Shown here piece after piece: positions 34,506 to 37,910 of a stretch of 47,052 nucleotides of DNA; the first letter of the stretch is position 1; every line of letters begins with the position of its first letter. The DNA is taken from NCBI GenBank assembly GCA_015521325.1, contig WAOK01000051.1, positions 1 to 47,052 on the forward strand, in the 5' to 3' direction. The position numbers and the translations under genes are program-made. The notes under the pieces were generated by a model. The model was not told the origin of the DNA and made no database searches. It saw only the letters and a list, made by a program, of their open reading frames with translations. Source of the stretch: Desulfurococcales archaeon. GTDB lineage: Archaea > Thermoproteota > Thermoprotei_A > Sulfolobales > NBVN01.

Positions 34506-35492
34506 CTATATCCCAATTATCCTCAGCATAAGTTTCTGGATCACACATGGTATGTTCCTCCCAAGCGGTGAAAAACCGCCGTAAGTCCCCAAGTACTTCG
34601 CCGATGCATCATCAAGCCTCTTGATCTCGTCATCACTTAGTGCTACATCTGCTGCTTTGGCATTACTTATCACGTGGGAGATCTTTCTGGCGCCTGGTAT
34701 TGGGATCACTCCCTTAGCGATTATCCATGCAAGCGCTATCTGGGCTGGAGTCGAGTTATGATTGCTTGCGATCTCCTTCAGTGTCTTTAAGAGTTCGGTG
34801 TCACGTGATGCCCTCTTATAAACTGGGTCAGTTAGTCTGGCGAAGTTTCTTCCCTTGGACTCACCCGTTAAGGCACCTTTTGCGAGCGGCGACCATGCGA
34901 GGGCACCTATTCCTTCTCTCTTAAGATACGGTACCAGTCCCTTCTCTGGAGCGCGGTACGCTAGGCTGTACTGGAACTGAACAGAGACAATGTCGTATTT
35001 CCTTAAGCATGTCCTGACCTCCTCAACTTCCCTAACGGAGAAATTGCTGAGTCCGATATACCTGATGAGTCCCTTCTCAATGGCTTCCTCAAGGCTACGG
35101 AGGACATCACATAGTTTACACCACCTGGGTGGGGGCCAGTGGATCTGGTATAGATCTATGTAATTCGTCCCTAGCCTCCTCAAAGAAGCTCTTAATGACC
35201 TAAGCGCCCTTTCTCCGCTGGAGGCGTTAAAACCCGCAAGCTTAGTGGCGACGATTATTTCCTCTCTAGGAACTCCCTCGGCGTTTAGGGCCTCACCTAA
35301 TAGTTTCTCAGATAATCCGTTACCGTATATTTCAGCTGTGTCGTATAAGGTGATCCCGTGCCGAATGGCGGCATGGAATATTTCTTTCGGTGTGTTACCT
35401 AGTTTTCCCCACGCTTTTTGGCCGAATTGCCAGAGGCCCAGACCTATGACTGATATCTTTGGTCCATGCTTTCCTAAACGGGTATATTTCAT
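34506..35492 (-). CDS. Aldo/keto reductase
   Basis: MKYTRLGKHGPKISVIGLGLWQFG; YDTAEIYGNGLSEKLLGEAL; IDLYQIHWP; IPIPGARKISHVISN. Confidence 0.93.
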   Translation of the reverse strand: MKYTRLGKHGPKISVIGLGLWQFGQKAWGKLGNTPKEIFHAAIRHGITLYDTAEIYGNGLSEKLLGEALNAEGVPREEIIVATKLAGFNASSGERALRSLRASLRRLGTNYIDLYQIHWPPPRWCKLCDVLRSLEEAIEKGLIRYIGLSNFSVREVEEVRTCLRKYDIVSVQFQYSLAYRAPEKGLVPYLKREGIGALAWSPLAKGALTGESKGRNFARLTDPVYKRASRDTELLKTLKEIASNHNSTPAQIALAWIIAKGVIPIPGARKISHVISNAKAADVALSDDEIKRLDDASAKYLGTYGGFSPLGRNIPCVIQKLMLRIIGI

Positions 35493-35530: not shown

Positions 35531-35586
35531 TAAAGTGATGAAGGCAGGCGTCACTGAGTGCTGATGACATACCCCGGACTGATTTC
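35531..35586 (+). ncRNA. C/D box guide sRNA
   Basis: C box GTGATGA 35535-35541; 12-nt guide AGGCAGGCGTCA; D' CTGA 35554-35557; 3-nt spacer; C' CTGATGA 35561-35567; 11-nt guide CATACCCCGGA; D CTGA 35579-35582; flanking AAA/TTT can pair. Lies in the gap between two minus-strand genes. Confidence 0.88.
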
Positions 35587-35593
35587 CTCTGGC

Positions 35594-36445
35594 TCACTCT
35601 CCTTTCTTTAGGTGATTCAGTAACAGTCTGTTACAGCCGGAGCTTGTGACGCGTAGTTTTATAGTTGTAGCAGCTCCCTTCCTCAGAGAAGGTTCTATGC
35701 AATAGAGCGTCCTCATTAGCCTCGCTATGGCTTCACTGGCGACTAAGTCAGACTTTGTGTGCACTCCTGCTGCTTCAGCTACATGAACAATGAGTTTTTC
35801 TATCTCCCGCATAGCGACAAAGAGGTACGCTAACCCGGCGGGTGACGGTGTAACTACTACGAGCGGGGGTCTCCCCCTTCTCCTCAGCGGCTGTGCCCTA
35901 CCTCTGATCTCTCCCTTTATCATGAGCCTATATCCCGGCCTGCTAAGATCGTTGATCAGTCGCATCACCGCCTGTCTCTTGAGGTTCCTATACCTGCCGA
36001 ACTCGTCCGCTGTCTTTATCCACTCAACTATGTCGTCAATTTTCGCCGGGGACGCGAGCGGAAGAACTGAGATGTTGGGCTCGCCACACCTGATGATCTT
36101 GCATAGCCCAAGCATTGACGCCGTCAACACCATGATGACGCCGCCTCTTACCGGATCCCTGGTCTCTTTCGTGTCAACTAGTATCGATGTGAGCCTATTC
36201 ATTAGTACCTTTAGATGTTCGTTAACATTATTGCTCACTAGACCCTGCTTCGCTACCTCACCAGCGCTTACGAAGAACGCTATAGCCTCATCAAGTTTAT
36301 CCCCTAACCGGAACTCGAATCTGAACCTCTCCGGTCCCTTTACGGAGCCGGACTCGATGATAATTGAGTTCCCAAGTGTTGAAACCCATATTGCGTTTTC
36401 TCCCACGACGGTTTCAGTTTGACTAGGTTCCATATCCGTCACCAT
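35594..36445 (-). CDS. Hypothetical protein
   Basis: 283-aa ORF, no recognised domain. Confidence 0.6.
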   Translation of the reverse strand: MVTDMEPSQTETVVGENAIWVSTLGNSIIIESGSVKGPERFRFEFRLGDKLDEAIAFFVSAGEVAKQGLVSNNVNEHLKVLMNRLTSILVDTKETRDPVRGGVIMVLTASMLGLCKIIRCGEPNISVLPLASPAKIDDIVEWIKTADEFGRYRNLKRQAVMRLINDLSRPGYRLMIKGEIRGRAQPLRRRGRPPLVVVTPSPAGLAYLFVAMREIEKLIVHVAEAAGVHTKSDLVASEAIARLMRTLYCIEPSLRKGAATTIKLRVTSSGCNRLLLNHLKKGE

Positions 36446-36613: not shown

Positions 36614-36676
36614 AAATAATGATGAAAGCGCTCTTCGCTGAATAGTGATGAGCAACGCCTCCTGAGCAATCATCTT
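36614..36676 (+). ncRNA. C/D box guide sRNA
   Basis: C box ATGATGA 36619-36625; 12-nt guide AAGCGCTCTTCG; D' CTGA 36638-36641; 3-nt spacer ATA; C' GTGATGA 36645-36651; 10-nt guide GCAACGCCTC; D CTGA 36662-36665; followed by CTTTT. Confidence 0.9.
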
Positions 36677-36710
36677 TTAAGCAAAGAGATCAGATCAGCG
36701 GTGCAAACAA

Positions 36711-37910
36711 ATGGTGCTGTCTAACCGCCTAATGAGCCTCGGTGTCTCACCCCACAGGAAACTGGCTGACTTTGTGTACCAACTTAAACTGATGGGTGTC
36801 AAGGTCATTAGCTTCGCAGCCGGTCAACCTGGCGTCCCACCCTACGAGGGCGCGATTAAAGCGTTAGGCGAAGCATTAAGGAAGGATCCTTACAGGGTGA
36901 GCAGTTACGGCCCCAGCGCCGGTCTACCTGAGCTACGTGAAGCCATTGCAGAGGATGTAAAAAGGGCTGGAGGCCCCGACCTCACGCCCGAGGACGTCGC
37001 GATAGTCTCTGGGGGGCTTGACGGCCTACAGCTTACTCTCTCGGTGTTGACGGATCCTGGCGACAGAGTTGTTGTCCCAGAGCCATCCTATGGTATGTAC
37101 GAATATGTCTCAAAGTTCCTAGGCCTTAGGGTAGAGGTATGCCCACAGCCCTCTGAGAACGGCTTCCAGCCCGATGTTGAGTGCATCGCCAAGCACCTGA
37201 GGAAAGGAGCGAAGGCTGTCATAATTGCATCTCCCGACAACCCTACTGGTAGGGTGGCTGATAGGGGCGTGCTTAAGGCGATTGCTGAGACTGCCCAGGA
37301 GAGCGGTGCGTACGTGATCTACGATGAAGCGTATCGGTACATCTACTACGAAGGAAGTCATTACTATCTGGCCAGGGACTATCCTGATGTCGTTATTGGT
37401 GTTGGCTCGTTCTCGAAAGACCTGGCCATACCCGGGTTCAGGCTCGGGTTCGTCTACGGGCCTAAGGAAGTAATCGCCGGGGTCAAGAGGCTCAAGGGTA
37501 TACTCGGCATCTGTGCCTCTATACCCGCCCAGTACGCGGCTGCTGCTGGACTGAGAGATCCGGGTTTCAGGGAATACCTAAAGAAGGTACTCGGCATATA
37601 CCGTTCGAGGAGGGACGTCGCCTATGACGCATTAAGGAGGTACCTACCGGAAGCCGGGGCGTACCTACCGAAGGCGGCCATGTACATATTCGCCGACTTC
37701 CGCCCGTACCTCGAGAAGCTGGGCGTGGACGACGTCAAGTTCGCGTTCGACCTAGCCGAGAAGAAACACGTAGTAATGGTGCCGGGCCAGGCCTTCGGCG
37801 CCCTAGGCAAGGGCTTCATGAGGGTCACGTTCGTAACCCAGGACGAGGCAACGATAGAGGAAGGAATCAAGCAGGTAGCCGAATATCTAAGGGAGGCAGG
37901 GGCACTCTAG
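36711..37910 (+). CDS. Class I/II pyridoxal-phosphate aminotransferase
   Basis: SYGPSAGLPELREAIA; SPDNPTGRV; YDEAYRYIYYEG; GSFSKDLAIPGFRLGFVYG (PLP Lys). TTTTAAG about 32 bp upstream fits a leaderless start. Confidence 0.92.
   Translation: MVLSNRLMSLGVSPHRKLADFVYQLKLMGVKVISFAAGQPGVPPYEGAIKALGEALRKDPYRVSSYGPSAGLPELREAIAEDVKRAGGPDLTPEDVAIVSGGLDGLQLTLSVLTDPGDRVVVPEPSYGMYEYVSKFLGLRVEVCPQPSENGFQPDVECIAKHLRKGAKAVIIASPDNPTGRVADRGVLKAIAETAQESGAYVIYDEAYRYIYYEGSHYYLARDYPDVVIGVGSFSKDLAIPGFRLGFVYGPKEVIAGVKRLKGILGICASIPAQYAAAAGLRDPGFREYLKKVLGIYRSRRDVAYDALRRYLPEAGAYLPKAAMYIFADFRPYLEKLGVDDVKFAFDLAEKKHVVMVPGQAFGALGKGFMRVTFVTQDEATIEEGIKQVAEYLREAGAL

Follow-up and report, generated by a model that had tools for sequence, protein, structure and literature searches.

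Does the short gap between two minus-strand genes on this archaeal contig house a C/D box sRNA and, if so, which nucleotides would its guides select for methylation? The window (the whole stretch of DNA analyzed, 47 052 nt) contains, within a gap of 101 bp, a 48-nt plus-strand element that we call sRNA A: GTGATGA-AGGCAGGCGTCA-CTGA-GTG-CTGATGA-CATACCCCGGA-CTGA. It had been described from the letters alone (below, the sequence-only reading) with this box order, guide lengths, spacer and 48-nt span, all of which are exact at 35535-35582 (plus strand). The features of the locus are given below, where 'sister' denotes a Desulfurococcales MAG (JALSOP010000128.1), the genus's single further genome.

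34506..35492, minus strand: neighbouring aldo/keto reductase gene (Pfam PF00248)
35532..35585, plus strand: possible short terminal stem AAA/TTT outside boxes C and D; 3 bp here, 2 bp in the sister; weak
35535..35582, plus strand: sRNA A, putative C/D box sRNA, box C to box D; C-D'-C'-D order exact; 47/48 in the sister
35535..35541, plus strand: box C, GTGATGA; identical in the sister
35542..35553, plus strand: D' guide AGGCAGGCGTCA, 12 nt; identical in the sister; no above-chance target
35554..35557, plus strand: box D', CTGA; exact
35558..35560, plus strand: D'-C' spacer, GTG; 3 nt
35561..35567, plus strand: box C', CTGATGA; exact
35568..35578, plus strand: D guide CATACCCCGGA, 11 nt; identical in the sister; candidate target, tRNA T-arm
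35579..35582, plus strand: box D, CTGA; exact
35594..36445, minus strand: neighbouring gene for a 283-aa protein; no Pfam family; sister homologue 88% identical in amino acids

The anatomy of sRNA A is that of an archaeal C/D box sRNA. Both box C (RUGAUGA) and box D (CUGA) are present and exact, and they are accompanied by internal C' and D' boxes, guides within the range of about 10-13 nt and a short D'-C' spacer. With known members of the class (PMC4644070, PMC7994747) it shares the boxes, the 12- and 11-nt guides, the 3-nt spacer, a length of about 50 nt, a short intergenic site, the N+5 geometry and a fibrillarin gene in the genome (E=3e-102). It differs from them in that its guide pair is limited to two species of one genus and in that it has no Rfam match: the scan of the window at the gathering threshold matched no family, and sRNA A fits no specific one. 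Known archaeal C/D box sRNAs are dual k-turn guides that work with L7Ae, Nop5 and fibrillarin (PMC4644070, PMC7994747). If sRNA A behaves like its class, its C/D and C'/D' motifs would form kink-turns binding these three proteins, and each guide would direct 2'-O-methylation to whichever target nucleotide pairs with it five positions upstream of box D or D' (N+5). Since sRNA A is antisense to both neighbours, it would need its own promoter. An AT-rich stretch lies about 40 bp upstream in both species (CATTAATTAC and CATTATATAAC), a weak signal; no clear promoter was found by a scan that models bacterial-type promoters only, the host being archaeal.

That the boxes came to be so arranged by chance, without any gene, we consider very improbable. 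The single-strand fold of sRNA A is no better than that of shuffled sequences, which might be taken to favour chance; C/D sRNAs, being defined by their boxes, ordinarily show no remarkable fold in isolation. What argues against chance is the rarity of the pattern relative to shuffled and reversed controls, together with conservation of boxes and guides in the sister. The half-pattern RTGATGA-12-CTGA has two matches in the window versus 0.07 expected from shuffling the window, the second match being another C/D sRNA. The full box pattern occurs once in the organism's own genome, once in the sole same-genus relative, and neither in 39 other relatives nor when read backwards. The looser C-D'-C' pattern is found six times in the own genome (five besides sRNA A) and not at all in the reversed control.

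Conservation of the boxes in relatives, on which the sequence-only reading had made its proposal depend, holds in the one sister species. There the copy sits between the same two genes and is identical at 47 of 48 nucleotides, with all boxes and both guides unchanged and the sole difference in the D'-C' spacer. The flanks are only 50-73% identical (30/41 upstream, 4/8 downstream) and the neighbouring coding sequence 78%. In each species the bases abutting boxes C and D can pair, as A-T in this genome or the sister and as T-A in its counterpart, which amounts to one compensatory change in a terminal stem of only 2-3 bp. No homologous D' guide was found in 212 other genomes of the order. Because boxes and guides remained identical while the flanks and the adjacent gene diverged, sRNA A is, as judged from sequence comparison, almost certainly a true crenarchaeal C/D box sRNA. 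Its anatomy, the fibrillarin gene and further C/D sRNA loci in the genome, several of which carry guides with clear matches to rRNA or tRNA, likewise bear out the designation 'unannotated C/D box sRNA'. As a hitherto unannotated addition to a known class, it represents ordinary biology.

As for targets, the organism's own 16S and most of its 23S rRNA are absent from the assembly, and the sister likewise lacks nearly all rRNA; Rfam models found no 23S or 16S in either. Using blastn with the 23S of a relative, we recovered only about 420 nt from the 3' end of the own 23S. This 3' part (L145, G000:C3:1-1125) is split by an intron of ~650 bp with an open reading frame that by eye appears to encode a homing endonuclease; the intron is probably why the Rfam-based genome search missed the own 23S. 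As identity between the recovered part and other family members is 89-96%, the 23S sequences of the family are a fair stand-in. To each guide we added the first nucleotide of its box D or D' (as in PMC4644070), and the N+5 position had to be Watson-Crick (WC); the published rule for C/D guide targets is at least nine consecutive WC pairs, N+5 among them (PMC4644070). As a check of the scan, other C/D sRNAs of the genome gave 10 WC pairs in the own 23S and 11 in the family 16S. The 16S match belongs to the D' guide of L143 (G000:C63:15917-15951, minus strand), which lies downstream of a tRNA gene (C63:15983-16092, minus strand), some 30 nt away, an arrangement that suggests a tRNA-sRNA dicistron. 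Another locus, L142 (G000:C51:149500, plus strand), has a D guide that pairs over about 12 bp with tRNA-Gln(TTG) around its anticodon; its N+5 nucleotide is U34, predicted to become Um34, and tRNA-Gln U34 is a known C/D-guided site in S. acidocaldarius (PMC7668247). Within the own 23S fragment (last ~420 nt) neither guide of sRNA A has a target.

The sequence-only reading had the D' guide methylating the G in UGACGCCUGCC of 23S rRNA, around E. coli position 1830, through pairing with GUGACGCCUGCCC. This is the bacterial form; likewise, GACGCCTGCCC is the bacterial form of the 23S segment at that position. All 11 family 23S sequences covering the region carry GAATCCTGGCCACTGGC at the equivalent site, and the segment reads GAAUCCUGGCCA in all readable sequences; these sequences match the own 23S 3' part at 89-96% identity. 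The only match to the proposed target, an 11-nt complementarity in the 23S L057, is all that speaks for the proposal, and we dropped it as bacterial-type contamination. The rRNA of L057 aligns with family 23S in pieces at about 74-83% identity (one short piece at 95%); L057 and L083 (G044:C28) form a bacterial-like rRNA operon on what appears to be a contaminant contig in the MAG G044. The proposed D' target is thus contradicted by the family's 23S sequences, the genus's own site not being among those read, and we regard it as extremely improbable.

No other target emerged for the D' guide: against rRNA and tRNAs nothing exceeded shuffled guides (P-values of 0.2-0.4 for rRNA and 0.6 for tRNAs). 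A near-match, UGACCYCCGYCU, recurs in family 23S and was dropped for a mismatch at N+5; a nine-nucleotide match at the 3' end of the L055 23S was dropped as absent from the own 23S. On present data the D' guide is an orphan, though fully conserved in the sister. For tRNA-targeting C/D sRNAs it is reported that one guide has a target and the other does not (PMC7994747), and an orphan D' guide would fit this one-guide pattern.

For the D guide, to which the sequence-only reading could assign no target, a leading though unproven candidate is now the tRNA T-arm. Together with the first C of box D, the guide forms nine consecutive WC pairs, N+5 included, with GUCCGGGGU (positions 46-54) in six tRNAs: tRNA-Ile, -Phe, -Val(tac), -Val(cac), -Met and an intron-containing tRNA called Ser by ARAGORN. 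The same site is present in the sister tRNA-Ile. Counted back from U54, N+5 is G51, so that pairing of the D guide with these T-arms would lead to Gm51. The match lies exactly at the published minimum of nine WC pairs (PMC4644070), and it is weaker than the matches of the companion C/D sRNAs of the same genome. Shuffled guides equal it in 7.5% (tRNAs only) to 18% (all targets) of trials; the complementarity alone is therefore indecisive. The 5' part of the D guide does not match the T-loop. Against 23S and 16S the D guide gave 8-WC matches, at chance level, and a match in the intron of tRNA-Pro(GGG) was set aside, as the intron is removed from the tRNA. Aiming one guide at a tRNA has precedents: tRNA-Gln U34 and G18 and tRNA-Gly C50 in S. 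acidocaldarius, as well as a Cm56 guide in Pyrobaculum (PMC7668247, PMC7912444). The C50 site is a predicted C/D target (PMC7668247); we did not find position 51 named as a C/D target in the literature on tRNA-targeting sRNAs (PMC7668247, PMC7912444). The T-arm thus leads among the candidates as a prediction, and the whole statement, a C/D sRNA whose D guide methylates G51 of several tRNAs, we consider evenly balanced between true and false. Position 50 belongs to the T-stem, even though the wording used for C50 in PMC7668247 is D-arm.

Two other accounts of the guides compete with the T-arm. In one, sRNA A would be a dual guide on domain IV of 23S rRNA, with D' on GGGUGCCUGCGG and D on AGCCGGGGUACA (in L046 at about 1878-1890 and about 2022, respectively, 144 nt apart). 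Both sites are present in the closest 23S relatives (L046, L040 and L060), a joint score within 150 nt is reached by 7% of shuffled guide pairs, and methylation hotspots have been published nearby, in helices 61 and 68-71 (PMC4644070), the helix assignment of the sites being inferred. Yet the D' pairing (7 WC plus 2 G-U) and the D pairing (8 WC) both fall below the nine-WC rule, the single-site matches are at chance (P-values of 0.37-0.38 on L046), the joint score within 100 nt is unremarkable (P-value of 0.62), and several family members have not kept the D site (AGCCCGGG). We therefore hold a dual guide on 23S to be unlikely.

The true targets might instead lie elsewhere (genus-specific rRNA, another ncRNA or mRNA), or sRNA A might be an orphan or RNA-chaperone sRNA. 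An rRNA site confined to this genus could belong here, since the own 16S and most of the 23S are outside the assembly. The D' guide, identical in both species and yet without a target, would be accounted for, and one-third of 489 archaeal C/D sRNAs have no significant rRNA complementarity (PMC4644070). The nine WC pairs of the D guide with tRNAs, sufficient by the published rule, count against this account, which we rate as rather unlikely, if a little less so than the dual guide.

A second C/D sRNA lies 1.1 kb from sRNA A, upstream of the same 283-aa gene:

36619..36665, plus strand: sRNA B, ATGATGA AAGCGCTCTTCG CTGA ATA GTGATGA GCAACGCCTC CTGA; conserved in the sister

Its D' guide forms 10 WC pairs with the D-arm of tRNA-Ala(TGC/GGC), placing N+5 at G22 (shuffle P-values of 0.005 for tRNAs and 0.05 for all targets), and the sister version of the guide adds an eleventh. 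Whereas both guides of sRNA A are unchanged, the D guide of sRNA B has diverged in the sister (7/10). G22 of tRNA-Ala is thus the predicted target of sRNA B; methylation of this nucleotide in tRNA-Ala is reported for M. maripaludis (PMC7668247). Between sRNA B and the plus-strand gene at 36711, a stretch of about 45 nt (36665-36730, plus strand) that contains CTTTTAAGC is nearly unchanged in the sister and much better conserved than other intergenic sequence; it may be a promoter, a leader or more.

The guide core of sRNA A recurs outside the genus, which supports the T-arm candidate independently. Within the class, 229 genomes were searched with the pattern TGATGA-N1-8-CCCCGGACTGA, which matched four sites beyond the genus (L150-L153), one per genome and all in family f11, taken here to be Sulfolobaceae. 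These are C/D sRNA-like, and their guides (GTGAACCCCGGA or GAGAACCCCGGA) share the register of sRNA A. The f11 guides, of the form G(T/A)GAACCCCGGA directly before CTGA, have at least 11 bp to the T-arm and are complementary through C56 of the T-loop; tRNAs sampled from two of these genomes contain GTCCGGGGT. As in sRNA A, the core CCCCGGA directly precedes CTGA, which predicts the same nucleotide, G51 of tRNA. However, the core is the D' guide in the f11 sRNAs and the D guide in sRNA A, and the f11 sRNAs have a longer T-loop match, another second guide and another genome position. It is conceivable, although we lean slightly against it, that one C/D sRNA guides Gm51 in the T-stems of the tRNA set sharing GUCCGGGGU and that independently arisen sRNAs serve the site in two families.

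With these results a little-studied crenarchaeal genus gains a pair of unannotated C/D sRNAs, and a target borrowed from bacterial 23S rRNA is corrected. Should G51 be confirmed, two families would share a T-stem methylation site set by guide RNAs of unrelated origin, a small and testable example of convergence among guides.
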